This document shows positions 13,313-39,263 of a DNA stretch of 64,000 nt, in pieces; the first letter of the stretch is position 1, and each line of letters begins with the position of its first letter. The translations under genes and the position numbers were made by a program. The notes beneath the pieces were generated by a model, which made no database searches, was not told where the DNA came from, and saw only the letters and a program-made list of their open reading frames with translations. Origin of the DNA: Paramacrobiotus metropolitanus (lineage: Eukaryota > Tardigrada > Eutardigrada > Parachela > Macrobiotidae); NCBI RefSeq assembly GCF_019649055.1, contig NW_026570270.1, forward strand, positions 930,001-994,000. Reading direction: 5' to 3'.

Positions 13313-16308
13313 ATGATGTCTCATGATCATCTTGAACCAATGGCCACCTGCTCAGATAGTGAGGAAACGTTCAACCAGAAACGCAAACGATGGGAGCGGG
13401 ACGAGAAAGTTCCTCGCACGGGAGAATCAAACAGCGTTCCGGACGATTCTCCTAACTCTTCGTTCCCAGATGGAAAACCGATGAAGGCCCTGGAAAAACC
13501 GAATGTGCTGGTAATGCTTTTTGAGAATATCTGTTATTGGTCCGAACTTTCCGGCCGAAGATCAACGATCAGTAAGAACTTTAGAAGCATACTAGTACAC
13601 TAAGTAGTACTTCATTTATAATTAAATTTTTTTTTAATTAATAAGATTTTGTCCCCCATTGTAATAATATATTTTAAACTGTTCGAAGAATAAACGTTCA
13701 ACCAACGGGAGTTTTTATTCGTAGAAATACTCCGAGCGACCCGATACGAATGTGCTGAAAACGACCGTAATTCTTAACAAAATTATTGTTCGCACAACGG
13801 AACTGGCCAATCATGTGCTTGTTATGGGAACAGTATCGGTAGGAGACTAATGATAAATCTTCTGGCTGGCTAACAAGCTTCTTGGTTACCGTTATTTATT
13901 TTTTTTATTTATTATTTATGGATTATTAGTCATTCGTGTGTTATGTGACTGTGTGTCTATGTCTACAACTGGCCACTTCTGTAGTATTCTGACAGTCCTG
14001 TCAAGTGTCCGTACGGGGCCGAAACCAACGCCTGTAACAACGTCAAGTTTGTGTCGACGGATCGGCTGAAGGCGCATTTGGAAGTCGCGCACCAGTTGCC
14101 CAATGTGCAGATCAATCTGTTGTGTCCCTGTCCGGCGGAATGCAACGGAGATAAGGAATGTCCGGTTGCCATATATGATCAGTACTCAGGACTGTATCTG
14201 GTAGATCATTTGACCGAGGCTCATGAGCAGTTCTACAACAAACTCCAGGCATTACTGTGCTGCGTGGATGTTGACGATGACGATGACCAGGATGACCTCG
14301 AAGCATTCCTGAAGGAAAACAATTTGGTACGGTTTCATATTAAAAATTTTTTAGTACGAAAACTGGATTGCATAATATATAAACGGGTCATTATTCTCCT
14401 ACTACGTATTATTAGTGCGAAAAGGTGACTGGCGAACGGGTACAACATTGTGTTCGCTGTTACTGGCAAGTTAACGCTTTCATTGAGTCTGAGTACAAAA
14501 TTTCGGAAGAGGCTTCAGATGGGAGAATTAAGGTGTGCTAATGAAATCTGAACGCGCCAGCTGTTGTCAGGCTCCTTTTTACGAGGGAGCCAGCAAACTT
14601 GAAAGGATTATTATATTATTTTCAACACACGATAAATATGCCATTTTCTTTAATTCGCTTGCTGTAACATGTACTGAACACTGGATGGTTTTTTCTCCGG
14701 CTTTCTGAATACCTAATACTGCATCGTCAAGCTTCGCGCGAAGCTGTGAGTGCTTTTGCGTTTAGTAAACGAAAGAGCTTAATAAAAAATGAGCTGTAGT
14801 TCAATATAAATTTTTTATGGATTTTAAATTTACTGAACACGTACATTATTATGTTCACGGATACGGTCAATAAATTCTGCTAGAATGCGGAACATACGAG
14901 TAATTACGTTTCATAATGTCCACTTCCGCTGTCCAAATTTATTCTAATTTAACTCTTGTTGTAAAAACAGAATAGGAAAGATATGGATTATCTCAAGCAT
15001 CTGGATGGGCGTAAAACGTTTCCGGAATGGACACGCGATGTGACTAAACCGTTCCAAAGCCAGCTGATTCCAGACAAATTCGTTCAGCCAACAGTTGTAG
15101 AGGTGTGGTGCATTTATTCTAATGACAGATACAGATTATAATTTATTCTAATCTGTACCCTACGGTCCACAGGAATGTTCTGATATTTTGCTAAGCACTG
15201 AGTGATTGTTTTGTAGAATCGTTGCTTGTATTACGTCTGCAACCTTGAACCATGTAAAGGGAACCGTTTCCCCAGCCCGCGACGAATCAGAAGTCACATT
15301 TGCACAGTGCACCTGGAACAGGTGCCCATGCAGACCGACCTTTACTTTGGATGCCCTGCCCCAGTGAGTAATTGAAGCTGTAGCACGCTATGTGTACCTT
15401 AAGCGTTTGGCCTTTTCGTGGCTAAAGCGCATGTGCTGTGAGTAGCTGAAGCGTTTGTGCTTTTTCTGCAGGGATGCAAGGACATCGTGAAGTCCAACAC
15501 GAATCTCATAATATCGCACGTGAAAGCGATGCATCCTTCTTTGTGCGGCAGGCCTGATTACTCGCAGAACGCTTTGCAGGTGAGTGTAGCGTTTTCTTTC
15601 TGATAATCTTACTCATGAAGCCGCTGCAGATTACAGATTTCATTTTTTTTAAAATTTGAAATTAGGATTAGTCTCATCGCAGTACGGTGATAATAACAAT
15701 AATACTGTATCAGTTTTATTTATTGTCCTGTGCAGTGGGACAGATATCTCCTCTGGGCATTTGACACTATTTTACAAAAACCACAGCATACTAATTTTGA
15801 AAATAAAGATACTGACATGCTATACGGAAGTCGCAGCAAATGACGCATACTGCGTCAGTACTGATATTAAAAAGATTATTAGACGGCGAGCGGCTATTGT
15901 ACAGCATAGCCATCGTGTTCGTATAAAATGCTGGCTGAAAATTCTGATTTTATGTGCTTTGGTGTTCATAGAAACGAGAGCGCATGATAATGGAAATGGA
16001 TAGTGGTTCTGTACGGGTCAGTCAGACTCTGGACGATTCATCTGAGGATTCCGATGACAGCAGTCCTGATAGCGAAAAGGAGGAGTACACGCGGTACTTG
16101 TACAAGTACTCATGTCCGGCTGAGGTATGTGCGGAGAGTTGATTAATAAAACAACATTGCGTTAAAAAGTGTGCTATAGATGCGTGTTTCGGCATAATCT
16201 GGAAGTTTTATTGCTGTGTTGTAGGGTTGCACGGTGGTGTACTGGGATCGGGATTATATGATTTGGCACATTGGAGCTGATCATCAAAAAATCTGGACTA
16301 CTGCTTGA
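13313..16308 (+). CDS. Five-finger C2H2-like zinc-finger protein, family copy 1
   Basis: Eight exons, all introns phase 0: 13313..13510, 13725..13838, 13985..14326, 14971..15102, 15217..15363, 15472..15579, 15972..16124 and 16225..16308, giving 425 residues. Exon 1 codes a basic, Ser-rich head (KRKRWERDEKVPRTGES) that resembles a nuclear localisation signal. Five finger-like units follow: CPYGAETNAC with AHLEVAH, CPCPAEC with DHLTEAH, CNLEPC with SHICTVH, CPAP-GC with SHVKAMH, and CPAE-GC with WHIGADH. The later ones have C-x4-C and all have H-x4-H spacing, unlike classical C2H2 fingers. An acidic DDDDDQDD run follows finger 2. No known family was recognised. Nucleic-acid or protein binding in the nucleus is inference. 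Copies 2 to 4 share the same exon plan. Confidence 0.85.
14425..14532 (+). other. Possible copy-1-specific cassette exon (36 codons)
   Basis: An open 108-bp segment lies between exons 3 and 4 of zinc-finger copy 1. It follows GTGCGAAAAG and precedes a GTGTGC donor-like site. Both ends are phase 0, so inclusion would keep the frame and add residues such as VTGERVQHCVRCYW and FIESEYKISEEASDG. No matching sequence was seen in the same intron of copies 2, 3 or 4. It may be a relic or chance. Confidence 0.35.
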
Positions 16309-16319
16309 AGTATATATAA

Positions 16320-17030
16320 TACCGTTTATTATTAATTTTGTGCTGGTAGAAAGAAGATTTTGATAGATTATCGTTTCCAGTTTTGAATGTTGGTGTGATG
16401 TGTTTTTTAATTTTTAACTTCATGAATTTATTTTTAATATTATTATGTTTAACGTCATGCGTATTACAAAGTGGTTTTTATTATAGCAGTGTTAAATTAT
16501 ATTTTATTTACCGACAAATTCTCGATAAGCTAGTTTTGTATTTTTGCATCAAACTATTTGCCGATATTTTCCGTTACCGAGTTTGTGTTTGTAAGGTTCT
16601 GTTTAGGGTGACGTTGCTATGCTAACTTTCGGCTGGTTTTCGCCCAAAATCAAACCGGAATTCTGAGCTCCTCCTACGACGGCACTCTCCGCATCTGATC
16701 TATCGACAACAAGGAGAAGCACAAAGTCTGCCTGAAACTGAAATCCGCCAGCTGCCTGAAGACCGTCCCCAGTCCCCACCACCTGCACTTACAACAGGGG
16801 CCACAGGGCACTGCTTATCCGGACGCCCCGAGAAACGCGTCAAACCGAAGCTGGCGGATTTGGTGACCGCGGATTACGTCTATTACCACGTTCGCTGTGC
16901 CCTTTGTACAAGGAAGAGAAGCAACGCAGTAAGCAGGCGCAGTTTGAGCGAGCCCGCAAGGATCCCGTTAACGGGAGTAAAAGAATTAGCTTGCGTGACA
17001 ACTTTTAAAAAGAAATACAATTCAGTTTTG
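16320..17030 (+). pseudogene. Degenerate copy of the WDR70 3' region (with intron 4 and 3' flank)
   Basis: 16615-16790 matches WDR70 exon 5 from its first codons (GCTAACTTTCGGCTGGTTTTC, then KEKHKVCLKLKS). Stop codons interrupt it at TTCTGAGC and ATCTGATC. The middle WD40 repeats are deleted, and the match resumes at about 16828 with the RVKPKLAD and ADYVY blocks and the KEEKQRSKQAQFERARKDP block until about 16968. The 3' flank also matches WDR70's flank. The AT-rich DNA at about 16330-16615 resembles WDR70 intron 4, so this came from DNA duplication and not from a processed transcript. It cannot make a functional protein. Confidence 0.88.
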
Positions 17031-17712
17031 TCAGTTTTTTTACATGTTACTGTAAATACAATTTTTACGACAGCGCTTGTCGATAGAAATTCAACGGAAA
17101 CGCGGCGTCAACGCTGAGCAGTGGGCACGATGGAAGGAATTAATAAATTAAATAAGATTATAAGATGTTCTTGTTGTAATTTTTCCTGGTTCTTTCATTT
17201 TGTGTATCACGTCTGTTTTGACCAATAAAATTACTTACCATAATTCGCTGTTTGTGTGCATGATCCATCGTTGTGAACAGACAGCTGAAAACGTTGGCTG
17301 AATTGCTGACGGGCGCCGCAAACGTTTCCGCCGCCGGGTTCCAGTTTCAGATTAAACTGTTAAGACAAGCCACAACTGACAAGCGAGTGAAGGAAGAGTC
17401 ACTGGAGAGTGAAGAGTGAAGACCAACGATTTTCGCGCAGCAAACTGCAGTTTGCAAATACTATTTTAATACTAAATTTTACTGTAAAAATTATATTTTT
17501 GAGCGTCAAATATTTGTTTTCATCCGGTTTGCTATCAATTTGCAAATACGTTCTACGCATGTAAGAGTAGTAGCCTGTTGCGACGCGTCAACAAGCCAGG
17601 GTGACTCTGCACTTGGGGACTTTTTCTTTAACGTTGATTCGCGTTTTGGCGCCATCGCGGCGTACTTTTTCGTGAGTTTTGTAACTGTATTAAATTTATG
17701 GTCTGCTCCAAA
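17031..17712. other. Spacer before zinc-finger copy 2
   Basis: AT-rich DNA with no supported gene. The upstream motif TGTATTAAATTTA close to the start of copy 2 matches copies 1 and 3. Confidence 0.45.
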
Positions 17713-20379
17713 ATGATGTCTCATGATCATCTTGAACCGATGGCCACCTGCTCGGATAGTGACGATACGTTCAACCAGAAGCGCAAACGATGGGAACGCG
17801 ACCAGAAAGTTCCTCGTACTGGTGAATCCAGCAGCGATCCAGACGATTCTCCTCACTCTGAGTTGTTCCAAGACGGAAAGCCGATGAAGGCCCTGGAGCA
17901 ACCGAATGCGCTAGTAATGTAGTAATGTAGTAACCAACCGTAGTAATGTTTTCCTTAAAAAAATTTCTTCATGGTCTGCGCTTTCACGCCGAAGAACAAA
18001 GATCACTAAAAGCATAATCTGAATATTAACAATTAATTGTAGAATTTAAGTATGTATATTATAATTAATTACTTATTATACAGAGTAAATCAGGCTGAAT
18101 TTCCGTGAAGTTTGTGGACTGTTGTTAAAAGTACTTACTGTACTGAAACTGAATAATGATAACTGCTTATCGCACTGGAATAATCCATTCTGGACTGCGT
18201 GAAAATAAACGTGATAGGAACTTGACTTTTTATTCGTAGAAATACTCCGCGCGACCCGATACGAAAGTGCTGAAAACGACCGTAATTCCTGATAAAATTA
18301 TTGTTCGCCAAACGGAACTGGCCAATCATGTGCTTGTTATGGGAACAGTATCGGTAAGAGACTAACGATAAATTTTATGGCTGGCCAATAAGATCCTTGG
18401 TTACTGTCACTTATGTTTTTGTTATTTATTGTTAACTGGCCTTGACCGCTTACAATCTGCAGTATGGAGACAATCCTATCAAGTGCCCGTACGGAACCGA
18501 AACCAACGCTTGTAACACAGTGGAATTCACGTCGACGGATAGTCTGAAGGCTCATCTGGAAGCTGCGCACGAACTAACTAATGTTCAGGTTAATCTACTG
18601 TGTCCCTGTCCCGCGGAATGCAACGGAAATGAGGAATGCCTGGTTGTGGTGTACGATCAGTACTCCGGGGTGTTTCTGGATGACCACATGACGCTTGCTC
18701 ACAAGGAGTTCTATGAAAAACTGCAAACATTAACATGCTGCGATAAGCTTGATGATGACCAGAAGGAATTTCTCGAAGCATTTCTCGAAGAGAATGATTT
18801 GGTATGATAAAAGCGTTTTTTTACCACAGTTAATCCGCCGGCATCAACCATACAAAATCCTTTCTGTAGAAAATTCTTCGTATCAGTAAAGCTGGTTATT
18901 TCGAAGGCCTAACAAAAATATTGCTACTTTATTATTTACAGTGCTTAATAATACTCGTACTTTGTGTAATGATTAATTTCAACCTTTGGTCTGATAACAG
19001 AAAATGGACGATATAAAATATCTGGACCATCTGAACGGGCGTAAAACATTTCCGGAATGGGTACTTGATCTGGATGCAAAACAACCGTTTCCTAGCCAGA
19101 TTATTCCAGATAAATTCGTCATTCCTACCGTCGTAGAGGTGGGGTTGCAATTAGCAAAATGATTATATTTATCCTCCAGAATTCTAGGTAGATGCGTTTT
19201 GCAGCAGTTTATAGAACGTTCGTTATTTCACAGAATTGCTGCTTACGTTACGTCTGCAATCTTGAACCATGTAAAAGAACTGTCTTTCGCTACGCGCGAC
19301 AAATAAAAAGTCATATCGCTGTTGCGCACGAGGAGCAGGTGCGCATGGAAACCGACCTGTTCTTTGGATGTCCTGCTCCAGTGAGCTCTTTTTCTACTTT
19401 GACATCTGTCTGAACTTACTCTGAAGTCACTAAAGCGTTTGGGTTCATTCACCAGGGATGCAATGATATCGCGATGGCCGAAACGAAGCATATGGTATCA
19501 CACGTGAAAGCGATGCATCCTTTACTCTGCGGCAAGCCCGACTACTCCGAGAACGCATTGCAGGTGGGTGTTGTAATTTGAATATTAACACTTTCGACCG
19601 AAGCGTAGCGAAGGTTCTCTATATTAAGTTTCTATGAAAAATGTGGTGTCCGTCTGTCACCGCCACCTCACTTTGAAAGGTAAAATTCTCATGGCCACTT
19701 TAGCTCCACTAACAATAGAATGGGGCTAAAACTTTGTTTTTTTGCTGTCGTGCAAAGCGATTTAATCTGGCGGTGGCGACTGGAGATATGAGTTAATTTA
19801 GTATGGGAACTTAGGAATTCAGATTTCAAGACAATTTAATACTGTTCGTTGTGTTCACAGAACCGAAGGGACTTGATAATGGATATGGATCGGCGTCGTG
19901 TGCTCGTCAGAGAGACTTTGGATGGTTCCTTGGAGAAGTGTGAAGATTGTTGTAGTGACAAAATGCACCGGCACTTCTGCAAGTACTCGTGCCCTGTACC
20001 GGTATGCTGGCTCATAAAGAACTTCTAAATTTCGAATTAAAATACCAGTTTTCCAGTTTTAAGGGCAGGCAACATGAGCATGCTGACCATATGGTGGGCT
20101 TCTCGTACTTCTTCCATGCAGCAGCTTTTGAACTTAGGAAAAAATCGTAACAGTAAAACATTTCACACAATGACACACATGCTTGTTTCGTCGTATAATT
20201 GGTATATTTATGTACTATTTCATTTACCTGTGGCACAACGTATTAGCACTAACTGAAAAATCATAATCGGTAAGTATGGTTTGATTGTCTTGTAGGATTG
20301 TTCGGTGGAGTACTGGGATCGTGAGTACATGGTTTGGCACATTGGAGCTGATCATCAGAATCGCTGGAATATTGCCTGA
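17713..20379 (+). CDS. Five-finger C2H2-like zinc-finger protein, family copy 2
   Basis: Eight exons: 17713..17913, 18240..18353, 18463..18801, 19001..19138, 19234..19380, 19456..19563, 19861..20001 and 20296..20379, giving 423 residues. All introns are phase 0 with GT-AG ends. The start is set at MMSHDHLEPMATCSDS to match copy 1; an in-frame ATG at 17698 would add five residues. Finger residues are kept: CPYGTETNAC/AHLEAAH, CPCPAEC/DHMTLAH, CNLEPC/SHIAVAH, CPAP-GC/SHVKAMH and CPVP-DC/WHIGADH. The fifth finger has Asp in place of Gly at the exon 7/8 junction, as in copy 4. Exon sizes match copy 1 apart from a few codons in exons 1, 3, 4 and 7. It appears intact. Its stop lies inside a 59-bp tandem duplication. 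Confidence 0.84.
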
Positions 20380-20475
20380 AAAATGCAGTCGTAGTTATGT
20401 GTTTGATGCTCGCAAGAAATCGCTGGAATATTGCCTGAAAAATGCAGTCGTAGTTATGTGTTTGATGCTCGCATT
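20361..20475 (+). repeat. 59-bp tandem duplication at the end of zinc-finger copy 2
   Basis: TCGCTGGAATATTGCCTGAA begins at 20361 and again at 20420, and the following TGCAGTCGTAGTTATGTG and TTTGATGCTCGCA are repeated nearly perfectly. The first unit includes the stop codon of copy 2, so the second is in the 3' UTR. Confidence 0.9.
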
Positions 20476-20479
20476 TCTG

Positions 20480-20725
20480 AGAGTTGGCGCGCGTTGACGA
20501 TCGGGTCCGCTGCCGCGATACACGTACATCAGTACACAGCTTCGTCGACGTGAGAATGGCATCCCACTGTTGACAGGTGCGGCGGCAGCGCAGCCTTTTA
20601 ACGGTGTCCAATGACTGAAAGGTCTCCTTTAGCACTTCCAGCGGCAACGCCAATACGCGCTCAGCGGCACACAACGGCTGTTTCCGTTTCGGCTCGGCAT
20701 CCGACTCTGCGGATTTCTTGCGCAA
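20480..20725 (-). pseudogene. F-box protein gene remnant 1
   Basis: The minus strand reads an F-box-like segment: ERVLALPLEVLKETFQSLDT, then RCRRTCQQWDAILTSTKLC. The LPLEVL...F..L......R..C..W pattern is typical of F-box domains that bind SKP1 in ubiquitin ligases. Upstream KRKQPLCAAERV is shared with the second remnant at 34.1-34.7 kb. No substrate-binding domain follows in frame; the C-terminal residues after RVSRQR look random. It converges on the zinc-finger copy 2 end. A short functional F-box protein cannot be excluded. Confidence 0.6.
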
Positions 20726-21880
20726 CTGATTATAAAAGGACGATACTGTCTGGCACTTTCGAACGCCCTAGCCTGTCATTGAATTTGGGGAAACTCAGAG
20801 AACACGACAAAAATGCTCGGTTGAATGTGTGACCACACCGTTCCCAACCTTTCCAGCAACGCTCCGGCCTGTCAAGGCACGCCAACGTGCATTTTTTCCA
20901 GTTATGTGCTATGTACTATCAATGATTCACCGGTCGGGTCATCGTTTCTTCGGTCAGCAAAACGTCCTCAGCAAATTGTCGATCAGCAGGAAAGTGGTCA
21001 GCGAATTTTCCGTGTGTCAAATTCCTGAATTCGACGTCTGAAAATTCACTCGGAGGAGACAACAGAAACTGCATTTTTTTGCGCTGTTACCTTGAAGTTC
21101 AGTAGGATTTTATGAGAAATGTACACAGCTTGGATCGAAATAATTTCAAAACAAACAGCTGTTGTGGAAATTCATTAACAAGTAAAAAATAAATCCGTTT
21201 CGCATTTGCCGGTACTCAGAGTTAACGGATTCAAAAGTGGTTATGCACGGAATGAAAGTTACCGCGAATGGTTGTAGGCGCAATTTGCGTTATTGTTTGT
21301 TTGTTTGTTATTGTTTTATTATTTGTGTTATCGTTTGTTGGCACTTCCGTAACGGACACAGATACAGTACGTTTTTGCATTGGTGCTGAATTAAGAGGAC
21401 CTTCGCTGCACTCCGGTCGATAATATGTACTGTGTACTTGGCAAATGGCAACTTATTTTACTTCTGCCAAAGAGCACAAACAGGCGGTTTGAATAGTTTT
21501 CCTTTTGTGGTTTCTCTGCATGAACTTACATAATAATATTAATGCTATTATTATATTGCTATACATAATACCAGTCAGATGTTAAATCAGCTTGTTTAGG
21601 CTATGTATGTACCGCATTTTTTAGGCCGGTATAAATGGCAGGCATTACAGTAGGCCTTTTAATGCGAGTCTTGCGATGCAGCCATCATGCAGGCTGACGC
21701 AACAACATTACGAGTATTGCGATGGTGTTGCGACTGTCGCTAACTTGGGATTGTTTTATTTATTACTGCAGCTTACAGTTCTGTGGGAACAACTGTGTAC
21801 ACACTGTACAGTACAATAGTACTGTGGAGTGTGGACAACGTTTTTTGTTGTATTAAATTTACCGTTTTCAACCATCAAAA
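20726..21880. other. Spacer between F-box remnant and zinc-finger copy 3
   Basis: No supported gene. It contains short simple sequence (GTTTGTTTGTTTGTTATTG near 21295). TGTATTAAATTTA occurs just upstream of copy 3. Confidence 0.45.
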
Positions 21881-23789
21881 ATGATATCACGCGATCATCT
21901 TGAACCGATGGCCATCTCCTCGGATAGTGATAATACGTTCGACCAGAAGCTCAAACGTGGGGAGCGAGACGAGAAAGTTCCTCGTACTGGAGAATCAAGC
22001 AGCGACCCGAACGATTCTCCTAACTCTTCGTCCCAAGATGCAAAACCGATGAATTGCCCGAAGCTACCGAACGTTCTGGTATATTTATCGAGGAACCTAC
22101 ATCCTCAGAATATTATAGGCTGATGAATACAGACCAGCAAAAAGCGGATCGAATTATCATAATTATTAATTTTATTACTTGTATAGTAGTGTACTGCAAA
22201 CTAAAGTATGTAGTTCAAGTAAGTCAACAGAGTTTTTAATATTATTCAGAATAGATATGTTGAGCTTATAAAGAGACGCTTTCTATTAATTTTGTTAAAG
22301 ATATGCGATTTCCTAGAAATACTCCGCGCGACCCGATACGAAAGTGCTGGAAACGACCATAATTCCTCATAGTATTATTATACGCAAAACGGAACTGGCC
22401 AGTCATGTGCTCGTTATGGGAACATTATCGGTAAGAGCCTGGTAAAACATTTGGAAGAATAGCGAGTACCAGTATAATTCTTATTGGTTTTTATTATTCT
22501 GGACGTTTGTCTTAGCTGTACTGTACTTATGAAGTTACGTTTGCGGTTTCTCTTTCAAACTGACCGACTACAATGTGTAGTATGGTTACAATCCGATTAA
22601 ATGTCCTTTATACGGGACCGTAAACGGCGACGCTTGTAAGAACCTGTGCTATACGTCGACGGAAACACTGAAGGCACATCTGCAAGCCGCGCACGCACTA
22701 ACCAACGTGCAGATCAATCTGTTGTGCCCATGTCCTGCGGAATGCAATGGAAATATGGAATGTCCGGTTGTCGTTTATGATCAGCACACAGGAATGTTTT
22801 GGAGAATCACCTGACAACTGCTCATGAAGATCACTTTGAAAAACTGCAAACATTAATGTGCTGTATGAACCCGGATGACAAATCGGATTTCCTTGAAGAA
22901 TTTCTGGAGGAATATGATTTGGTATGACAACTATGCAGCATGCGCCTTTATAAACGCTATTAAAACATGTTTTGTAGACAGGCAGCAGTTAAAACTTAAA
23001 ATTAACAGTAGGCACTAGGCAGCTAGCTCTACGGATCGGTAGTACGAGTATCGAGACAAGTTAGTTCGTATATACATTCATTTGGTTTATTTGAAGAAAA
23101 GTAAGCACGTGGCTTTAACTTAAACTTTGAAAAATATCAGTAGAAGAAGTAACAGTACAAGAAATCTTATATCAGTAGAAAATAGATAAATTTCATTTCA
23201 GTTTTAACCTGTGCTTTGAACACAGAAACTGGAAGATATGGCTTATCTCAAACACCTGGATGGGCGTAAAACGTTTCCGGAATGGGTATACAACACGACT
23301 CAGCCGTTTCCCAGCCAACTGATTCCAGATAAATTCGTCATTCCAACCGTTGTTGAGGTTCGGTTCATCGTTTACTGTAATAGATATGCACGGTTGGTCT
23401 ACTCGTACAGAAGATACACATCACATGGATATTGAGATTTCTTGCACGAATGTGTTTGGTTAACAGAATTATTGCTTGCGTTATGTCTGCAATGTTGAGC
23501 CGTGCAAAGACAACATTATCCGCAACTCGCAGCAAATGAGAATTCACATCTTTATTGTGCATAAAAGTCAGGTTCGCAGGGAAACCGATGTTTTCTTTGG
23601 TTGCCCGGCCCAGGTGACTGAAGTGAGTTTTCTTCAACTTGGTATTTCTAGCATAGTAGAAGTGTGTGGGTTCTTTTGGCAGGGATGCGAAGCCATCGCA
23701 AGGTGTAACACTAAAGACATGATATCACACGTGAAAGCAGTTCATCCCTTGCTTTGCGGCAAGCCTGGCTGCTCGGGACGGCTTTGGAG
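21881..23789 (+). pseudogene. Zinc-finger family copy 3, truncated and frameshifted
   Basis: Exons 1-6 are recognisable at 21881..22078, 22317..22430, 22581..22921, 23226..23357, 23467..23613 (or 23622) and 23683..23789. Exon 3 is 341 bp against 342 in copies 1 and 4. One T is missing at about 22797-22801 after CACACAGGAATG, so finger 2 shifts frame and soon stops. Exon 6 is 107 bp instead of 108; the second lesion falls in the TCGGGA stretch just before its donor. Exons 7 and 8, which code the fifth finger, are absent; a WDR70 fragment begins about 350 bp further on. Fingers 3 and 4 are otherwise well kept, so decay is recent. Confidence 0.85.
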
Positions 23790-24149
23790 GTAGGTATTAC
23801 TAGGTAATTTGCTTGGTAATAGATGAATATGAAAAGCCCAAGATGTTTAGAAATGCAATTGCAGTGGTTCTGCCACTGCTGCCGTCAGTGACACTACCGG
23901 GTAGCGGCTGCCATTGAAATTATCAAATGTGATTTGCGTACTTACCTATACCTAATAAAACACGTGCATCAGTTGTGCAGTGCAGTAGCAGACATCTCAT
24001 ATTACGTACCGTATTTAGTTTACGTCTTGCAGTTCTACAGTATCTACAAACGCATTTATCTGGAAGTGGGAATCAGAGGGATTACTAGGGTAGAAAGTAG
24101 TTAAACCTGGAATTTAAAACATGGAAGATCGAACTTTTTTTGTTGTGGT

Positions 24150-24405
24150 AAGGTCCTCATTGGTTTTCACTGATAGACAAATCGGATTTCTGCATCTTCC
24201 CATACGACGGCGCCTTCCGCATCTGGTCCATCGACAACAGAGAAAACACAGAGTCTGTCTCAAAGTGAAATCTTCCAGCGGCCTCAAGACTGTTCCCACC
24301 ACCTGCGCCTCCAGCCAAGAACGAAAATTCGTCGCCGCCGGCTGCCATGACGGCGGCATCTCTTTGTGGGATACATCTCCCATATGTTTCTCCTACGACT
24401 AACCT
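24150..24405 (+). pseudogene. Second degenerate WDR70 exon-5 fragment
   Basis: Two frames together match WDR70 exon 5. HLVHRQQRKHRVCLKVK is a shifted reading of the segment coding SIDNKEKHKVCL. SSSGLKTVPTTCA, KFVAAGCHDGGISLWDT and ICFSYD follow in the WDR70 frame, with an internal deletion between the last two blocks. It ends at a stop just after CFSYD. The position downstream of zinc-finger copy 3 mirrors the fragment downstream of copy 1. Confidence 0.85.
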
Positions 24406-27588: not shown

Positions 27589-27613
27589 GTGCTCCTACAT
27601 AATGTAGGAGCAC
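27589..27613. repeat. 25-nt palindrome related to the GC-rich element ends
   Basis: GTGCTCCTACAT and its complement ATGTAGGAGCAC flank a single central base. The sequence matches the terminal repeat of the element that ends at 27490. More diverged units lie at 27549-27581. Confidence 0.8.
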
Positions 27614-28977
27614 ATAATGTAACCTAAAAAAGATGCCGAGCTAACAACGCCATCTACAAGTTTCACGCATCGTTACTCGACTCATGTCACATGACTCATG
27701 TCACATGACTGTTAGGCCCCACCGCTTCCTTCAACCGGCCGGACCCTTCCGTACTCTACGGGCGCCAAAAATTACTTTTGTTTACACACGGATATCGAAG
27801 ACCAAAAACCGAAACTACAGTTTTATATATGCTACGACTGATTCTAGTCGTATACCGCACCTGTCACGGTTCAATGAACCTGCCGCAAAATTACGCGAGC
27901 GTAAACGGTAAGGGTCAAAAACTGGCAGTAATACAGTACAACGCCGTTTTCAAACTACAACAGATTTAGCGCTGGGGTCGCGGGATGGCACCATATATAC
28001 GTTGTCGTCATCCGCCGATGCTGAACATGTAGTGCGATAACGCCGCAGGCAGTACCGGTTCAGTTTGCCCACGTCAGGCGAACCTTCACCGGTTAGATCG
28101 TCTACACTCCACTGGCGTCCATGGTAATGTGCCGACGGACGGGGATTCCTGCTTTGGTAGTCCTGAAGAATCTACAGAGTTATTCACTGGGTTTCACGGT
28201 GTACCTAAGCAGACTAAGAAGATTATCAGCCAAATTTGCCGAACCATACCGGCAGCCGGATTTGTTTCTCCTGAATTCTCAAATTTGTAAATCTTGGCAT
28301 TTAATTTCCAGTGTCACGAAAAGATGGAACTCTGGTTTGGTGTAAAAGCGACCTCCACAATTAACTAAACAAGTGGAAACTGGGATGCCGATGCGCTCCA
28401 AAATTTAAAATAATAAAATCACGAACAGGATGCGACAGGAACCCTAAACACATCCAGTTCCCTTACATGCTGACTGCCGAGCACTGAAATGGAAATTTGC
28501 TGGGACAGAAAAGCGTCTGAAAATGAGGTGACTGATTTCGAAATCCTCCACCTAAGTCTCTAACCATAAGATGCACATTTACGAAGCTAATTTTCCAGGG
28601 TGATGACGACAGCCGAATACGGAATTCCAATGCGGGAACAGCGTCCGTGCCTAACAGTGGCAAAGCATATCGTGCTCCGAGCGTGTGATTTGGAAAGATT
28701 CTTTCCAAATCACACGCTCTATACATTCACAGCCATCTCATCAGAAATCCAACTGAATTTCCATGGAACACCTTGTGCTGGCGGTGCGATCGTGATGGAA
28801 CGCTGGTGCACGATGAGACGTTCGAGACGGATACCAGCATGCATGGCGGTCTCCTCAACTAACCATAGCGCTTCAACTAGGTATTTGGCGCGAAGTTATG
28901 TATCGGCGGTATTTACAGTAAATGCATTTTGCATGTATGCTTATTTTTCCTGCATTAATTTTACGCGTTTTACAATG
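27614..28977. other. Repeat-derived spacer containing a 41-nt palindrome
   Basis: No supported gene. A direct repeat ACTCATGTCACATG occurs near 27682-27708. A perfect 20-bp-arm palindrome lies at 28679-28719. Confidence 0.45.
28679..28719. repeat. Perfect 41-nt palindrome (20-bp arms, 1-nt centre)
   Basis: GAGCGTGTGATTTGGAAAGA, then T, then TCTTTCCAAATCACACGCTC. The arms are exact reverse complements. It may be the junction of a foldback or the head-to-head ends of two short repeats. Confidence 0.92.
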
Positions 28978-29801
28978 GTGGAGGTCGATTACATTTGGGT
29001 AACCGTTGCGCGTCGGGTAACGGGGAAACGCGTAAAAAGTGTGACGTAACAGCGCGTAATTAAGTAAACATTCTGATTGGTAATCGCGAAATCTGGGATG
29101 GGTTTTGGCTTACTTGTCCGCGTAAGCGTTGCGCTTCGACGTCGAAGCAACCATTCACCCAAACTTCTTACGCGCACCGATCAGCAAATTTTTGAAGTTC
29201 TGAAAAATTTTAATTGTTGGCTTGACGCTACAAAATTATTTCTCTTTAGAAGTTGTTGTGCTATTATCGTTTACGATTTTTATTTGGGGTGTAATTATCA
29301 TCATCATATCGAGATCGCATTGCTGAACACAAGTGCTGTAGGTTGTAATTATTTTTTATCACGTACTGTGCCATTATGACATCTCCTAAGAGGACGTCTC
29401 CGCGAAGAAGAAGCGAGGACCCATAAAACCAAAGGTGGCTAACAGAGGCCTGCTGCCAGCTCAAGATCAGACTGATAATTTTTTTGTCTCGCTGTTTTTT
29501 TCGTCGGTGCCATACCAGAAAAATAACAAAAGATAATATTATGTTACGCACTCGTAATCCATAATTAAGTTCCAATGAGATTATGTACTGTTTTTATATC
29601 GAGAAATGATCCAGTCTGAATCACAGAGGAGCTGCATTAAACGATAACTTTTTTACACTTGGATGGTCAATTTCCACCCTGGCACGTAAATTTACTCGTT
29701 TTCTTATTTGCCATTTCATTTTTTGCTGACTCATTCGTAATTTTTACGCGTTCCACCGTTACCCGACGCGCAACGGTTACCCAAATGTAATTGACCTCCA
29801 C
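28978..29801. mobile_element. 824-bp MITE-like DNA transposon with TIRs and 5-bp target duplication
   Basis: Terminal inverted repeats of about 60 bp: the left end GTGGAGGTCGATTACATTTG at 28978 continues with GGTAACCGTTGCGCGTCGGG. The right end carries CCCGACGCGCAACGGTTACC and finishes with CAAATGTAATTGACCTCCAC at 29801. Only about two mismatches occur over the first 50 bases. The element is bounded by the direct repeat CAATG (28973-28977 and 29802-29806), consistent with a 5-bp target-site duplication. The interior has no transposase-like frame, so it is non-autonomous. The superfamily is not assigned. Confidence 0.88.
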
Positions 29802-29806
29802 CAATG

Positions 29807-30254
29807 GTTAGCTTCAGACGTTTATAGTGTATATTCATGCCCAGCTGCGTCTGTCGGCTAAAACTTTGTACCGTACACCGTATGAATTAACTAGAAGGTT
29901 AGATAGCAGGTTTTTTAGCGGTAAATTTATTTTTATTAGCCAAAACGATGGCGCGAAGTCTTCCTGAATTTTATTTTCCTACATAAAACAAGAGCCGGGC
30001 GCAGTGACCTTGAGGCCAAGCCACAGCTGAGCGGATATCCGGAAAGTCTGGTCATCCATGCAATACAAAGCAGTAATCTATACGCGTAAGCCGTTACTCG
30101 TTAGTATCGTTCATAAAATTGTACTACGCGGTTCGCCTTCACCGCTTTTATATGACAAGGTGACAATCAAACTATCATTAACGTGAATTCCGTATTGAGT
30201 TTATCAGATTAGAATGAAGATTTGTAAAGCTGTTTAAGATTTGTATCTTAAAGA
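29807..30254. other. Spacer upstream of the DIRS-like remnant
   Basis: No gene supported. It may include decayed reverse-transcriptase sequence of the adjoining retroelement, but no RT motif is readable. Confidence 0.35.
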
Positions 30255-31435
30255 CTTTATATTCCGGTCGCCGATAACACCTTTGCGGATGCGTTAAGCC
30301 GTGTTTGTACTGCTGATTGTTATAAGTCGACCGTGGTCGATTGTATCAGGCACCGTGAAAGTGTACTGCGCCTGAGCGGTAACTACTGTTCCAGATACCC
30401 AAATAGCAAGTCTGAACGGGACCCTGACCGCGTTGCGGCTCAGTGCTATGACACCGTCCTCTGTCCGCACCCGGAAGGCCCAGTGGAGGAGGTTTAGCAG
30501 CTTCTGCAGTAAAGATCGGCTTCAGTCAGTACCGGCAAAGCCAAGTACAGTTTGATTATACATTGCCAAGTCACTGTCACGTAATCTTGAGTTTAGTTCC
30601 GTTCAGAACTACCTGGCTGCCATTGTGCCGTTGTACCATCTTCATTATAAACCGGCGCCGGATCTCAAACATTTTGTGATCGCTCAGGCTATGGAAGGAG
30701 TGCGTCGTCAGCGCAGGGAATTTCCTAGCAAAAAACCCCCAATTACGAGTTTACGACACACCATTTGGTTGGCATTTTTGAAGTAGTGCACCGACTTCCG
30801 CGGAAGTACGAAAGGCGTTCTGGGCTGCTTGTTTCAAGTTGTTTGTTTGCATTCTTTTCATTGTTACGGAAACGCAGTCTGTTTGGAACCGATAAAGGTC
30901 ATCTACACATTCGTTTCCGGGATGTTACTGTGGGAAAAAACAACGTTCTCGTGTCCGCTCCGGTTATGAAAACCAGTCACTGCATTGGTGAAAAAATCCT
31001 TATTCCGCTCCCGATCCGACCGGGCTCGGTGTTTTGCCCCGCTAAAGCTTTTACAGAGCTTCGTGAAAGTGGTGTGCTTGAAAGTGACCGTTCAGTCTTC
31101 TGTTACCGTGATAACAGTGGGGCGTTAAGAAACCTGCCCGCGGCCAAATTCACGCGTTTATTGCAGACTGCTATGCATGAGGCTGGGTACGATGGCGCAA
31201 AATTTAGTATTCACTCCTTCCGGCGGGGGTGGTGCATCATTTGCATCCGAATGTGGTGCGTCTCCAGAAGCTATAAAAGCGCAAGGAAATTGGCGCAGCG
31301 CCTGTTTCGAGAAATACATTGTTCGGGAAAACGATCGGCGTCTTCTTTTTGCCCGTGCCGCGGCCACGGGTTTCCCTTGGGTTTCCCTTGGGCTCACTGC
31401 GTTGAACTGCCTGTTTGTTCGCTCTCGTTGAGCGG
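30255..31435 (+). mobile_element. Decayed DIRS/Ngaro-like retroelement: RNase H end plus tyrosine recombinase
   Basis: 30263-30498 reads DNTFADALSR, the usual end of the RNase H domain in DIRS- and Ty3-type elements, then about 65 open codons. From 30601 another frame reads VQNYLAAIVPLYHLHYKPAP, an N-terminal core-binding-like segment of a tyrosine recombinase. It slips frame near 30770 into SLLRKRSLFGTDKG (first catalytic Arg), continues to FSIHSFRRG (His-x-x-Arg) and slips again near 31235. The last block is PEAIKAQGNWRS, then FEKYI with the candidate catalytic Tyr. RNase H followed by tyrosine recombinase is the DIRS order. At least two frameshifts make it inactive. No terminal repeats were identified. 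Confidence 0.78.
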
Positions 31436-31762
31436 TTCTGTTTGTTTGGTTTTCCTGTTGTTTGTTGCGATTATTATAGGCTTAGCCAGAACGTTCTCTT
31501 TGGTGTACGCTACGCCCATAAGAACTAAAACTTTTGTGCCGAACAGCCAGCCGTTTGATTATACACAATACACACGCAGAGACGTTATTACCTTGATAAA
31601 AGCAATACGAGCAAAGTATATTGTAGTCAGCTAATCGTGGTCTTCGTCAGTTGCGGCGTAGTGCATATGAATAGCCACGTATAGTCTTCTTCATATGCGC
31701 TACGGTTGCGGTGATATCGATTAAACTTATTGCTAAGACATTTTTTACTGCTTATAGGTAAT
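31436..31762. other. Spacer between the retroelement and the protease gene
   Basis: The plus-strand frame continues open to 31634 but has no recognisable domain. Nothing else was seen. Confidence 0.35.
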
Positions 31763-33632
31763 TTATGCCTTTTTAGTGGCGTTGACAATAGTACTTTCAA
31801 TCCAGTTCTTTAGATATAACACATTCGCATAGATTCCCGGCACACCGGGCTGCGCGCAGCCCTTCCCCCACGTCGGCCCACGACACCACTCCGATCAGCT
31901 CGTGGTGCCCATCCTTGTCCTTAGCCACCAACGGGCCACCGCTGTCGCCTTGGCAGGAATTTTTCCAATTTTCCCGGAAGCCACCACAAACCCACAAATT
32001 CACGGCAGTTAGTTATTTTTGCGCCGGATATACCAGTACATATAGATATACCAGTATGATACAATCCGAATAAAGCATCAATCAGTGAATGTGAACTCTT
32101 CCAGCTGTTTAAAGCACGTAGTCCGGTCATACAAATCAATGGCCACTTGCTGCAGTTTATCCGAACCGATGCCCAAGATCAAGATAGGAACGGCGAAATT
32201 ATTGTCGCTCCGTCCTGTTATAAGATATGTATTTCCACTTATTATTTTATATACATCTGGTCTCTGGATGACCTTCACCGGCTTCATGATAAAACATAAA
32301 ACTACGGAACAAAATCGTGAAAAAAATAAGATCATTTCAGTGACCTTTTATAAAACGCCTGACCTTGGTTTTCCACCAAATGCCCCCATCCAGCAACAAA
32401 TGCCACTTTCTTTCCGTCGCGTTCTTTGTCAATATTGGCGGCACTGGCCAGATCCGTGGACGGATGCGTCGGCAAGCAGATAGGCTGGATACGCGAGGTG
32501 AACTTGACAGGCTCCGCCAGCTCCAGCAGGGCCACATCATTGTTAGTGTTGTCCTTGGGATTGTCGTAGTCCGGATGGTGGAAAACCCGGGAGATGGGCA
32601 GCAGTAGCTCCGGCTGGGTGAGCACTTGTTTAATGTCGGTAATCCCGACCACCGCTTTAATGTGGGTGGTGAGGAAGTCGTCGGGGTGGTTGTCCACGCA
32701 GTGACCGGCAGTCACGATCCAGCGATCGCTAATCTGTAGTGAATTTTGTTAATCAAACCAGTGCAATGGTAATTTCATTAAAGAAAAGTACCACATTAAG
32801 TATAAATCGGTGTGTTCATTTTATAAACTACACGGTTGGCTATCGCTTAATTATGCACTACATTAATGATGTTTATTTATATTGTAAAACTGAACACGAA
32901 TTGTGTGGGTGTTATTACTGCAAGCAGCATGAAAACATCAAAATCAGAATAAGAAATGCGGCAATAAAATCTAAGGGTTTTATATTTTATTTTTCTGCCG
33001 TAAACCAAGAACTCTCAGGAAGAGAGGAAATTTTTACGTATCGATAGCGTCACAAGCGGATTCTGTTGTATCTGTACTGCCTCTACGGTACACTACGGTT
33101 TCAAGTATTGGGGAAACAAACTCGCTTGGCGATCGGCTTGATAATCGGATAAATTTTCTAATGATGTGAAAAATATCCCTAAACTCAAATACCGATTAGA
33201 CGGTAATTATTAAAACATTACCATTTGTACATACCAGACTGGCAGCACAAAACTGGTAGACGGGCGGCATGTATTCCGGCCGGAACTGGATGAGTGCCAC
33301 AATCCACGGCCAGCTTTCTTCCTGCGCCTCCACACCGCCGATAATCCTGGAGCCTGTGGCCCACAGAGCGTCTGGTAACACTTTGGTCGGTGTATTCGAA
33401 TCGCCGGCGGCGGCGCCCGTGGTTGGCGCCGGCAGGGGCGGAGTTTTGGATTTAATAATTGCCGGGTTATTGCTGATTGGCTTCCACCATTCTGTCAACG
33501 GATGTCAATTAATTAATCCAAATAAATAAAAAAATTCGATGATGTAAATTTACTTTCTGCTGATTACAGCTGATATTTACGAGCTTGGACAGCAACGGTC
33601 AGACATATGAAAATGCAGATAAATTTAATCAT
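31763..33632 (-). CDS. Trypsin-fold secreted serine protease, probably disrupted
   Basis: Exons (minus): 33581..33632 (signal peptide [17 protein letters not shown]), 33235..33491, 32364..32733, from 32214 to about 32085, and about 32000 to 31763. The first joins are in frame. The activation site SRIIGG and the catalytic triad are readable: [14 protein letters not shown] and GDSGGP. The residue at the S1 pocket floor ([10 protein letters not shown]) is Asn where trypsins have Asp, so cleavage after Lys/Arg is unlikely. Two lesions: no usable GT donor or AG acceptor joins [12 protein letters not shown] to NLWVCGGF, although they align as neighbours; and a run of five G near 31870 shifts frame before [14 protein letters not shown]. 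It is either a young pseudogene or a gene with assembly errors. Confidence 0.78.
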
Positions 33633-34132: not shown

Positions 34133-34839
34133 TCATGCAAGCTCCCATGGTAAAGATAGCGCGAGTCGGTATCGCGAATGCAGATGGGTACGTACGCGCT
34201 GCGGGCGTGATATGCTTGAAGATGCAAGCGTACAGGGCGTAATTTTAGTCCCACTTTGCCGATTTGGTGCGTTTGACGACTGCCGCGATACACGCACATC
34301 GCTACACAGTTCCGCCGTCGTGAGAATAGCATCCCATAGCTGACAGGTGTGGCGGCAGCGCAGCCTTTCAACGATGTCCAGTGACTGGAAGATATCCTTT
34401 AGCATTTCCAGCGGCAACTCCAATACGCGCTCACCGGCACACAACGACTGTTTCCGTTTCGGCTCGGCATCAGCCTTGACAAGCCGCACATAGGACTTTC
34501 GCTCAACTTCATGAAGCAGCAACGCCGATTCAGACGGCGGCAGAGTCCAGTACCCGTTCGGCGCACGGCATGCTTGCATGACCAAATTGCCGGCTGGAAG
34601 CAGCCCTGGTCTCTCGGATTCTCGAAACGGACTGCGAATCTGTCGGCGGGAAGCAGTTCGCGGCAACCCTGCCCGTCCACCATCCCCTCCACCAGCTCCA
34701 TAAAACCCATATGCAGCGACTTTATCGCATGGGATTGCGAACAGATTATCACCTTCAGTATACAGCTTCCCTGCCTCTTTAGATCCCGAAAGCCACGAGC
34801 CATGACAGCAGGAGCCGTGTCAGCCGGCATCTTAGGCAA
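34133..34839 (-). pseudogene. F-box protein gene remnant 2
   Basis: The minus strand codes LLLHEVERKSYVRLV, then KRKQSLCAGERVLELPLEML and IFQSLDIVERLRCRHTCQLW, the same F-box block as the remnant at 20.5-20.7 kb. Upstream sequence that reads best as coding (DLKRQGSCILKVIICSQSHA, then HMGFMELVEGMV) lies in another frame, so a frameshift separates the two parts. The tail after DVRVSRQ is not recognisable. Closest support is the sister remnant; both sit next to zinc-finger copies, suggesting joint duplication. Confidence 0.6.
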
Positions 34840-35248: not shown

Positions 35249-38200
35249 ATGTCGTGCGATCGTTTTGAACCAATGGACGCGTGCTCCATTAGTGACAGAG
35301 GAGTTGACCCGTTCAGCCAGAAGCGCCAAAGATGTGAGTTAAAACAGAAAGCTTCTCATTGTGCAGAATCAAGTAGGGTTCCGAATGATGATCCCAAGGT
35401 TCCTTACTCTTCGTTGTACGACGGAAAACCGAGGCAGAACGTGGAGCTGCCGAATGTGCTGGTATGTTCCATCGAGCGAAACGGCTCCCAACTGCTTTTA
35501 TGTTGACGAACTCATGAATCTTAAGACCGAAATAAGCGGGTAGATCTGTAGCGATCAGTAGTAGGACCGCAGGTGTGCTGCAGGCAAAGCTGAAACAGTT
35601 CAAAGACAGCTTTGAATTCTTTAATTCGAAAGCTCTAACAGTTAGTGCTTCCCAGACCCTAATTAATTATGGTACTGTACTTGTAAAGAGGTGCCTTCTA
35701 TAACTTCTATATTAACGGGGTTTGAATCTTGATGAGATGTATCACAGTATCTAAGTGGATGATGATTCCAGAAAACTGTACGTCATTACTGCATTAAAAT
35801 TCGTATAAAAAGTTTTCACTTGATATGTGTACTACGTACTACTCTGTAGTATCAAATAATCAATAATTTCGTGTACAAAGTACTTTTTAATAGCCGATGA
35901 TTCCATGTTTTTGGTTTTTGCTATAAATTTGCTTTTGTAAATTGTGATATTAAATGGGTGCGTCAGCTTTAAATTCCGTAATTAATGTGATACGAGCGGT
36001 CTTCTAATTTCGTAGAAGTGCTCCGTGCGACCCGATACGAAAGTGCTGGAAACGACCATAATTCCTCACAAAATTATCGTTCGCAAAACGGAACTGGCTA
36101 ATCATGTACTCGTTATGGGAACAGTATCGGTAAAAATCAGCAATTTATTTTGTGGGCTTATGTGACATATTACTATAATACATATTACTATATTACTATA
36201 ATAATTACATATTTCTATAATGCGTTATGTGACATATTATTATAATTTACATTCATCGTGTATGTCGTGTCCTATGTCTGCTCGTATTCTTTGTTTTTTA
36301 CAATCTGCAGTATGGTGGCAATCCTCTTAAGTGTCCGTACGTGTCCGAATCCGATGCTTGCAAGGAGTTGTGCTTTACGTCGACGGAGAGCCTAAAGGCG
36401 CATCTGGAAACCGCGCACGAACTGACAGATGTGCAGATCAATCTGGTGTGCCCCTGTCCGGCGGAATGCAACGGAAACAAGGAATGCGAGGATGTTGCTT
36501 ATGATCAGCACACAGGAATGTTTTTGGAGGATCATCTGACGGCTGCGCACAAGGAATTCTATGAAAAACTGGAAACACTAACGTGCTGCATCAATTGCAG
36601 TGGTGACGACGACGATGATGATCTCGAAGAATTTTTGGAGGAAAATGATTTGGTGAAGCAACTATAGAGATTTATTATAAGAGGACAGATACCTATATAT
36701 CTCTGTTCCCTTGATTTTCCGTCCGTATCTCTCTGTCCATGCTGCACAGCTGCCTTGTTTAGCCGTTTTGATAAAAGGAATGCCATGCTAAAAATAGATA
36801 CCATAAGTAGGTGCTATACTACTAGGTGGATATTTTGTGTACGTGATTTTTTTGATAATCGACTGCGATTTTTCGCTAAAGTTTTAGTTTGTATTTTAGT
36901 TCCCCTTCAGGCCTTCTGCTCGATGCATGACGTGGTGTTACCTGTTTAAAATCGATGTGCTGGTTTTCGCCGTCATAAGTTTTTTGCACCGAGCGCGAAG
37001 CGCGAGGTGCTGCAATTAACTGATCGTCAAGACTACACGCTCCATAGCAGTCGAGTATATCTGACGCCAAAAAGCGCGTCACCGTCACCTCTTTCCTATG
37101 GGATATTTGGAATTCCACAATATTGATTCCATTTCCAGTGGTACGTATCACTTCAAGTGGTACTGGAAATGCGTAACAGATCTCAGTGGCTATTGCTCGC
37201 GCTCGGTGCAATAATGTGGTTATCAACCACCGCTAGTAACTTCTATCTCATGTTTAAACTTAGAAAATGGACGATATGGCCTACCTCAAGCATTTGAATG
37301 GGCGTAAAACGTTTCCGGAATGGGTATTTGATCCGACTCGACCGTTTCCTAGCCAGACAATTCCAGATAAATTCATCCAACCTACCGTCATAGAGGTCAT
37401 GTATTGTGCAGCATGTGATATAATATTATGTGTCTCGTCCACCGTAAATGTGGTACACAGGGTCGTGACAGGGATGTTACGATGGCGTGGCCTGCAGAAC
37501 GGTGCTGATTTTGCAGAAGAACTGCTTGCATTACGTCTGCAATCTTGAACCATGTAAAGATAACCTCCTCCGAAACGCTGACCAAATGAGAGGTCACATC
37601 TATTCTTCCCACAAGGAACAGGTACTATTGGAAACCGACCTTTTCTTTGGATGCCCTGCCCAAATGACTGAAGTGAGTCCTTTTTCCATGCGAATGGGTT
37701 GAAGCTGCTTGTTAACGCCACTATGAACTAGATGTGTTACTGTTGGCTCCAGTAAATTTAACTCAAAATTACTCGAATTAATTTAACGTAAAATAAAATT
37801 CGGAGCATGGGTTTTTTCTCCAGGGTTGCGAGGCGATCGCGAAGGCATCCACGAACCACATGGTGTCACATGTGACAGCGATGCATCCTTTGCTGTGCGG
37901 CAAGCCTGAATACTCGGGGAACGCCTTGCAGGTAATTCAATTTGTAACTGAAAGGTGAAAAATTCCGAAAATATTCCAGAGTAACAAGTTCTGTGGTTGC
38001 CGCACTGAACTTCCGCTGGCAATAAATTCGTGTAAATTAAATGCGCTTACGAAGTACGTAGTTGCGCATTGCTGTAGAAGATGATGAACTGTTACTATCC
38101 AGAAAATGTGCTGCCCGTATTAGCGCCGTTACGATCAGGTCCACAGTACTTGATGCAGTAAATTAACGTACTGCAATGGCTCCAACTGTATGATACAGTT

Positions 38201-39263
38201 ATCGGCACTAAGCGCAGTTCAGGAATTGGGCAATGTGCAGGCGATGAAATTGTCTATCATGCCCTCCCGTGGAAGTCGCGGTGTAGCGTGGCGCAGTATA
38301 TTTAACCGTTCCAACGTTTTGAGTATTCACGGTTACTAGGAGTCTATCGTTTTGTGGATCAGATCGAACTTATTGTACGAAGTGCGACAAAGCGGAACAC
38401 GTGACACTAAAGCAACAAAATTTGAAATAGCTGGCCCTTCCTGCGTTTCGTCGTTGACCATTTATTGACAAGCGCTGTCGTAAAGATTCCTTCAGGTGAA
38501 AAATTGCGGTTATGTGTTCCCTCGTGAAGGCTACAAACAACAGGGTTTCCGTTCTATGAGTGATGTCTGTAGTGTTAGTAGAATCGTACGCTCTTTATTG
38601 ATCCGACTGGTATCGCAGGCTTCGCAGCAGAAAACAATTGAACAGAAAAGAAAGAATCGTAGCTACAGAAACTTGATAAAAACAGCAGCAGTTGCTAAGA
38701 AGACGAGGATCTCGACTAATACGTACACTACACTATGTATTTCGAAATCACGGATAATCTTTTTTGATTTTCTGTACTTTGTGTTCATAGAAACGAATGG
38801 ACCTCGTGATAAAAATGGACCAGCGGCGTGTGCGTGTTGGAGAGACTTTAGACGGTTTGTTGGAGGATTGTGTTGAGAGCAACTCTGATAAAAAAATGCA
38901 GCGGTACTTGTGGAAGTATTTATGCCCTGATCAGGTAAGTACCTATGTAATGTAAGCAGCTGGAAAATTGATACTAAGAATAAGAATGATGACCCTGACC
39001 CAAATTGGCAGTAGAGTGCGCCCAGTAGATTACGTCGAGCAGTGATGTATTCATGCAAGATTCACAACTTTATTTTTAGTTTAAACTGCAGTTAGAAGTA
39101 TGGTATTGAGTACAAATGATATGATTGCCTCGCTGTAAAATTGTTGGTTTTGTTTGTGTAATTTTAATCTGTGTTGTAGGATTGCTCGGTAATGTACTGG
39201 GTGCGAGATTACATGGTTTGGCACATTGGAGCTGATCATCAGCCTCTCTGGAACACTGCCTAA
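35249..39263 (+). CDS. Five-finger C2H2-like zinc-finger protein, family copy 4
   Basis: Eight phase-0 exons: 35249..35461, 36016..36129, 36311..36652, 37264..37395, 37517..37672, 37824..37931, 38791..38934 and 39180..39263, giving 430 residues. The first ATG in the family frame gives MSCDRFEPMDACS. Fingers: CPYVSESDAC/AHLETAH, CPCPAEC/DHLTAAH, CNLEPC/SHIYSSH, CPAQ...GC/SHVTAMH and CPDQ-DC/WHIGADH. Exon 5 uses a donor nine bases further on (GTGAGT at 37673) because the ancestral donor has become ATGACT, which inserts MTE between the paired cysteines of finger 4. It is the most diverged copy and looks intact. Intron 3 contains a small inverted-repeat element. Confidence 0.84.
36984..37211. mobile_element. 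228-bp inverted-repeat element in an intron of zinc-finger copy 4
   Basis: TTGCACCGAGCGCGA at 36984-36998 is the exact complement of TCGCGCTCGGTGCAA at 37197-37211. An inner 10-bp inverted pair (CATTTCCAGT at about 37131, ACTGGAAATG at about 37162) lies nearer the right end. No coding frame. It fits a short MITE. Confidence 0.65.

Follow-up and report, generated by a model that had tools for sequence, protein, structure and literature searches.

What are the proteins encoded by a tandem gene array on contig C50 of the eutardigrade Paramacrobiotus metropolitanus (Tardigrada; assembly of 169.8 megabases (Mb) in 533 contigs), and how far does their family extend? The array lies in C50:930001-994000, a stretch of 64,000 nucleotides (nt), hereafter the window, whose own numbering is used below. 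Its first gene codes for an unnamed 425-residue protein (NCBI model P0001, LOC129592198) with five finger units, F1 to F5, which by their sequences appear to be a variant of the C2H2 kind. The proteins of the array belong to a large family, which probably consists of nucleic-acid-binding regulators.

Five finger units with unusual spacing

In P0001, the spacing is C-x8-C-x13-H-x4-H in F1, C-x9-C-x15-H-x4-H in F2, C-x4-C-x13-H-x4-H in both F3 and F4, and C-x4-C-x12-H-x4-H in F5. When P0001 is aligned with five diverged members, the putative zinc ligands fall at C112/C121/H135/H140, C153/C163/H179/H184, C270/C275/H289/H294, C308/C313/H327/H332 and C395/C400/H413/H418. C151 is likewise invariant in this alignment, so that F2 has three candidate cysteines. 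The last histidine of each unit is separated from the first cysteine of the next by 10 (H140 to C151), 85, 13 and 62 residues, and the units therefore form two close pairs and one single finger (2+2+1).

Ligands were tallied over all exons found in one piece, that is 32 to 40 genomic copies per exon, excluding a broken exon 3 (copy 3, below) and a doubtful match on contig C67. In F1, C1 and C2 were each present in 34/36 copies, H1 in 35/36 and H2 in 32/36. For F2 the values were 36/36 (Ca), 35/36 (Cb), 36/36 (Cd) and 35/36 for each histidine; for F3, 39/39 for C1, C2 and H1 and 38/39 for H2; for F4, 36/39 (C1), 37/40 (C2), 38/40 (H1) and 40/40 (H2). In F5, C2 was kept in 29/32 copies and both histidines in 32/32, and the first cysteine, scored in a separate F5 alignment, in 13/13. 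True substitutions amounted to one at F1 C2, two at F1 H2, one at F2 Cb and one at F3 H2, all remaining losses being gaps. Since the cysteines and histidines are kept in nearly all aligned genomic copies, the finger pattern is not due to chance. An earlier sequence-only reading of the window had described five finger-like units with H-x4-H in all and C-x4-C in the later ones, and this description holds, the later ones being F3 to F5. The five units presumably bind zinc.

Relation to known C2H2 fingers

Profiles were compared with PDB chains. The F5 profile matched finger 1 of EGR1/Zif268 best (expectation value, E, of 5e-6), then REF6 and YY1 (< 0.01), with TFIIIA, ZIC3, WT1, GLI and Tramtrack at 0.076 to 5; all 35 chains at E <= 10 were zinc-finger or finger-bearing proteins, judged by their names. 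With the F3-F4 profile, two matches were found at E <= 10, ZFAT (0.057, not significant) and YY1 (4.3), and the whole-protein profile gave nine weak matches, to C2H2 or C2H2-bearing proteins (E 0.039-0.91). F5 is thus identified as a finger by its profile, and all five units by the conservation of their ligands. In the AlphaFold model of P0001 every finger coincides with strands and a helix, and in that of P0004 every finger coincides with a helix. PF00096 matched one of 13 F5 units (E 0.11) and was absent among the matches of a further Pfam search.

Like the classical C2H2 proteins EGR1/Zif268, YY1 and ZFAT, the family has Cys2His2 ligands, a hydrophobic helix core position and predicted strands plus helix. 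Unlike them, it has cysteines spaced by x4 to x9, H-x4-H throughout and the 2+2+1 layout. GLI, ZIC and GLIS have a tandem CWCH2 signature, in which each of the first two fingers has a tryptophan between its cysteines; no tryptophan was seen between the cysteines of F1, F2 or F3 in the alignments.

Gene structure in the window

The window holds four copies, all on the plus strand:

13313..16308, plus strand: copy 1 (P0001, LOC129592198), 425 residues; exons 13313-13510, 13725-13838, 13985-14326, 14971-15102, 15217-15363, 15472-15579, 15972-16124, 16225-16308
17713..20379, plus strand: copy 2, open, 423 residues; exons 17713-17913, 18240-18353, 18463-18801, 19001-19138, 19234-19380, 19456-19563, 19861-20001, 20296-20379
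21881..23790, plus strand: copy 3, reduced to six exons, F5 not found; 1-nt shift near 22799; a fragment of a WD40 gene follows at 24.1 kilobases (kb)
35249..39263, plus strand: copy 4 (diverged), open, 430 residues; exons 35249-35461, 36016-36129, 36311-36652, 37264-37395, 37517-37672, 37824-37931, 38791-38934, 39180-39263

The eight exons of copy 1 are all multiples of 3 with AG/GT borders, and their product is letter for letter that of the NCBI model, with the 425 residues given by the sequence-only reading. A ninth possible exon, 14425-14532 (36 codons, in frame, phase 0), is left out of the NCBI model. Copies 2 and 4 show the same eight-exon layout, with phase 0, AG/GT borders and zero internal stops, and copy 4 ends with its stop at position 39263. 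In copy 3, exon 3 is disrupted by the 1-nt shift and the last two exons, with F5, were not found. Eight exons and five units had been claimed for all four copies; this holds for copies 1, 2 and 4 and fails for copy 3, which is indeed decayed as had also been claimed. The parts of copy 1 are as follows (pLDDT, predicted local distance difference test):

13313..13510, plus strand: exon 1, basic head with KRKR, Ser/Asp-rich, mostly predicted disordered (pLDDT blocks 29-52)
13725..13838, plus strand: exon 2, conserved HVLVMGTV segment, predicted beta strands
13985..14326, plus strand: exon 3, finger pair F1-F2 and acidic insert
14971..15102, plus strand: linker exon, conserved FPxW...PSQ-IPDK-type motif
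15217..15579, plus strand: two exons with the F3-F4 pair; intron 15364-15471 falls between both F4 cysteines
15972..16308, plus strand: last two exons, acidic stretch and F5; the exon junction lies between the F5 cysteines

Family size and clades

A genome search with exon 3 gave 42 matches at E <= 0.001; with the exon 3 sequences of other members the numbers were 42, 43 and (E <= 1) 42. Profile matches for seven exons, exon 1 not being among them, chain into 43 runs, of which 26 contain all seven and 41 are multi-exon, some loci being cut at the edges of the stretches. The family, which had been taken for four tandem copies, thus comprises 41 multi-exon loci in the DNA stretches examined; further matches on C375, C24 and C84 lie outside these. 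The lone exon C339:33928 was not counted as a gene. The match at C67:545090, where an acidic stretch adjoins only two C2H2 units, is a doubtful exon-3 match (E 5e-4) and was dropped from counts, tallies and tree; it and the lone exon are the two runs by which 43 exceeds 41.

The tree was built from 37 loci, omitting four with under 140 aligned residues, and rooted by choice on an outlier from C66. Three clades were obtained, C24/C473/C18 (support 0.997), C339/C169/C265/C10/C84 (support 0.998) and C50/C248 (support 1.0). Members of the other clades are 34-39% identical to P0001, and the outlier, LOC129594214 (P0010), about 29-30%. The latter maps in eight pieces, the exon number of P0001, and no close second copy of it was found in the search. 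The family had been called young: this is true of the local array, which is more recent, and not of the family as a whole, which is older, given the identities between clades and with the outlier.

Exon borders set by eye agreed with the NCBI model of the C18 member (P0003). For the C24 member P0006 they agreed except at one donor (two residues) and in the last two exons, which the NCBI model takes in another frame. Two NCBI models of copy-3 type from the C50 array, P0002 (at its C-terminus) and P0009 ('GLKTVPTTC...'), seem to read through into a WD40 fragment, and these ends are probably annotation artefacts or fusions.

Selection and helix positions

The ratio of nonsynonymous to synonymous substitution (dN/dS) was computed in 60 of 683 paralogue pairs, those with dS of 0.1-0.6; the pairs share genes and are not independent. 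The median was 0.394 (range 0.23-0.67) and no pair exceeded 1. The family is under purifying selection.

In F1-F4, the ratio of the proportions of nonsynonymous and synonymous differences (pN/pS) was 0.80 at the contact positions (-1, 2, 3, 6), which touch DNA in classical fingers. It was 0.09 for the core and the histidines, 0.55 for the remainder of the helix and 0.47 outside the helices. At the contact positions of F5 it was 0.43. The F5 helix keeps a tryptophan in 13/13 aligned sequences and an arginine and a tyrosine in 12/13 each. Helix variability was also compared among paralogues, leaving out eight near-identical or fragmentary copies and the C67 match: positions 1, 3 and 6 of F5 hardly vary, -1 and 2 do. 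The outlier LOC129594214 has M instead of Y at position 3. This pattern fits a divergence of recognition in F1-F4 together with a common role of F5.

Relatives elsewhere and literature

Protein searches over about 5.8 billion sequences (E <= 1e-3 and E <= 10) returned ten distinct proteins, all from P. metropolitanus, in agreement with the anticipated restriction to one lineage. No relative outside this species was found, in a search whose five-residue-word candidate stage may miss diverged tardigrade relatives and that had no positive control for other tardigrade proteomes. Pattern matches on viral contigs (71) and in prokaryotes, one genome per species (29), yielded no confirmed relative.

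No publication was found naming any of five locus names tested, and the family is undescribed as far as the literature searched shows. With no Pfam family over its cut-off (see below), this agrees with the earlier remark that the proteins could not be placed in a known zinc-finger family. The terms zinc finger and C2H2 were not found in the available portion of the main text of PMC11191345. A zinc-finger survey that includes P. metropolitanus lists Pfam zinc-finger domains (PMC12941274, available portion) and probably missed the family; tardigrade surveys that count Pfam domains would overlook it.

Copy number and duplication history

Copy number needs care, for the assembly may carry haplotype duplicates. 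A second, inverted version of the window's array (944-970 kb) lies at 843-869 kb of the same contig, and the array is partly repeated on a short contig (C248:1-9.4 kb). Between the window and the inverted array, synonymous difference was <= 0.006 in three of four copies and 0.04 in the fourth, and one stretch of 7.2 kb was 96% identical. C169 and C339 have a common 5-kb stretch (97.8%). The near-identical arrays may be haplotype copies rather than a real inverted duplication, and the number of distinct genes is therefore, as an estimate, probably nearer thirty than forty.

When the window and the loci taken by region were all compared with one another as DNA (matches of 500 bases or more), similarity between clades was mainly confined to gene-sized stretches. 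Non-exon matches across contigs joined C24 to C339 (about 0.8 kb at 85%) and C169 to window positions 28976-29803 (0.8 kb at 93%); such matches outside coding exons look like dispersed repeats. A transposon origin of the genes was tentatively set aside because the introns are conserved; terminal repeats around the genes were not looked for. C24:801253-802783 and C473:4382-6424 are 96% alike over 2.1 kb, the adjacent copies on both contigs being about 75% alike, which suggests gene conversion or a recent copy.

Neighbourhood of the array

Copy 1 is preceded by a WD40-repeat gene, 11494-12317 (Pfam WD40 for 11494-11709), which we take to be WDR70-like. Fragments of it recur after copy 1 (16633-16971) and copy 3 (24161-24374), so that the duplication unit probably took in part of this gene. 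Two F-box open frames on the minus strand, 20261-20767 and 34133-34819, lie near copies 2 and 4 (PF00646, E 6.8e-6 and 3e-6) and are 88% alike across 197 nt. A gene for a trypsin-like serine protease lies in several pieces at 31797-33504, on the minus strand between copy 3 and copy 4; two of the pieces were tested (PF00089, E 2.7e-19 and 1e-9). To our eye, plus-strand open frames at 30252-31634 resemble those of a DIRS-like element, a tyrosine recombinase carrying an RNase H tail; for 30729-31631 there was no Pfam match at E <= 0.01. A 1.3-kb inverted repeat at 25273-26603, with 160-nt arms that are 90% complementary and two shorter arm pairs, could be a hairpin-type element. Downstream of the array there is a second tandem duplication, 43943-53176 versus 54359-62937, in five blocks that are 78-83% alike.

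What the family may do

The reading that we favour, and hold to be probable, is that of a large lineage-restricted family of P. metropolitanus whose members would be nuclear zinc-finger proteins binding nucleic acid, probably DNA, as regulators. Each protein starts with a head that is basic or rich in Ser and Asp and probably disordered. A short beta-rich segment follows, and then the five divergent C2H2 fingers, of which F1-F2 and F3-F4 are closely paired and F5 is solitary at the C-terminus. Targets would be chosen by the F1-F4 helices, which vary among paralogues at base-contact positions. The F5 helix, with its kept R, Y and W, may serve a function common to all members, for instance docking to a shared partner or binding a common site. 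Copies are gained by local tandem and inverted duplication, and some of them decay.

Several observations weigh against this reading. No Pfam family, C2H2 included, exceeded its cut-off in P0001 or five core models, in which the family again differs from classical fingers, and the family's loci were absent from 89 genome matches to PF00096 (150 of 1,087 candidates scored). TGEKP-type linkers, the linker motif of classical C2H2 fingers, were not seen in the proteins. Pfam at E <= 10 listed no KRAB, ZAD or BTB domain for P0001 or the core models; the latter lack exon 1, so that the N-terminus was screened in P0001 and a 461-residue model only. Separate profile searches covered F3-F4 and F5, and the C2H2 nature of F1-F2 is indicated by ligands, core position and modelled helix. 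With a mean pLDDT of 58.3 for P0001 and 51.3 for P0004, the AlphaFold models are too weak to show the five zinc sites that the sequence-only reading would have counted as support. The excess at contact sites is below positive selection, with F2 alone above 1, at 1.20. In a permutation test on paralogue variability, p for the excess was 0.071 (5 genes), 0.054 (14) and 0.003 (14) for the three clades singly, and 0.024 over all 34 genes. Pairs and sites are not independent, and a relaxation of constraint at exposed positions would produce the same picture.

The possibility that the proteins bind RNA, using C2H2 fingers that are paired and widely spaced to act in small-RNA pathways or in the processing of RNA, is unlikely in our view, and is kept open by the top structural neighbours of F3-F4, a region of the R2 retrotransposon and the microRNA-processing protein Serrate. 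The similarity of a finger-bearing region to ARS2/Serrate is sub-threshold: PF04959 reached 15.5 bits against a cut-off of 30, in one of six members of this five-fingered family. The R2 neighbour is the N-terminal zinc-finger (ZnF) region of that element (9dou chain A 220-283). In the available portion of PMC12222951 the ZnF1 helix residues of R2Tg are placed at 312 and 315, so that residues 220-283 would be its extra ZnF2-3. It is rather improbable that the fingers are structural modules of protein-protein adaptors, with protein partners in place of nucleic acid. The W and Y retained at would-be contact positions of the F5 helix, the non-TGEKP spacing, the acidic inserts and some structural zinc-binding Pfam models among the sub-threshold matches agree with such a role; F1-F4, however, are most variable at the positions that would read bases.

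KRAB-ZNF proteins of tetrapods and ZAD-ZNF proteins of insects are expanded poly-finger families, and finger number varies in KRAB families. The present family resembles them in its clustered, lineage-specific expansion and in the faster change at base contacts. It differs in that no KRAB or ZAD was reported, in that all the full-length members seen are five-fingered, and in that the fingers are spread over several exons instead of one. A narrower form of the favoured reading, genome-defence repressors in a KRAB/ZAD-like arms race with mobile elements, would account for the gain of copies in tandem and inverted clusters, for the faster contact positions and for the stretch between copies 3 and 4 that to our eye resembles a mobile element, Pfam giving nothing there. 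It is nevertheless very improbable: no effector domain was recognised, the number of five fingers is constant across the outlier and the full-length members of the three clades, unlike in KRAB families, and contact-site rates are overall not above 1. That the array is mostly decaying or non-functional is hardly credible. Copy 3 is broken and several other loci are fragments, but dN/dS is above 1 in none of the 60 pairs, core codons stand at 0.09, and 26/43 exon runs are complete for the seven exons searched.

Returning to nucleic-acid-binding regulators, a more far-reaching version is offered tentatively, as somewhat doubtful: the family may be an invention of the tardigrade lineage, an orphan 2+2+1 class of some forty loci in which F1-F4 would diversify recognition around a shared F5, KRAB/ZAD-like and yet independent. 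The 2+2+1 finger layout was not found in any other organism searched. If the family binds DNA, it would represent a sizeable expansion of regulators in P. metropolitanus, and with three clades, one outlier and a constant architecture it would offer a contained case for following the divergence of specificity.

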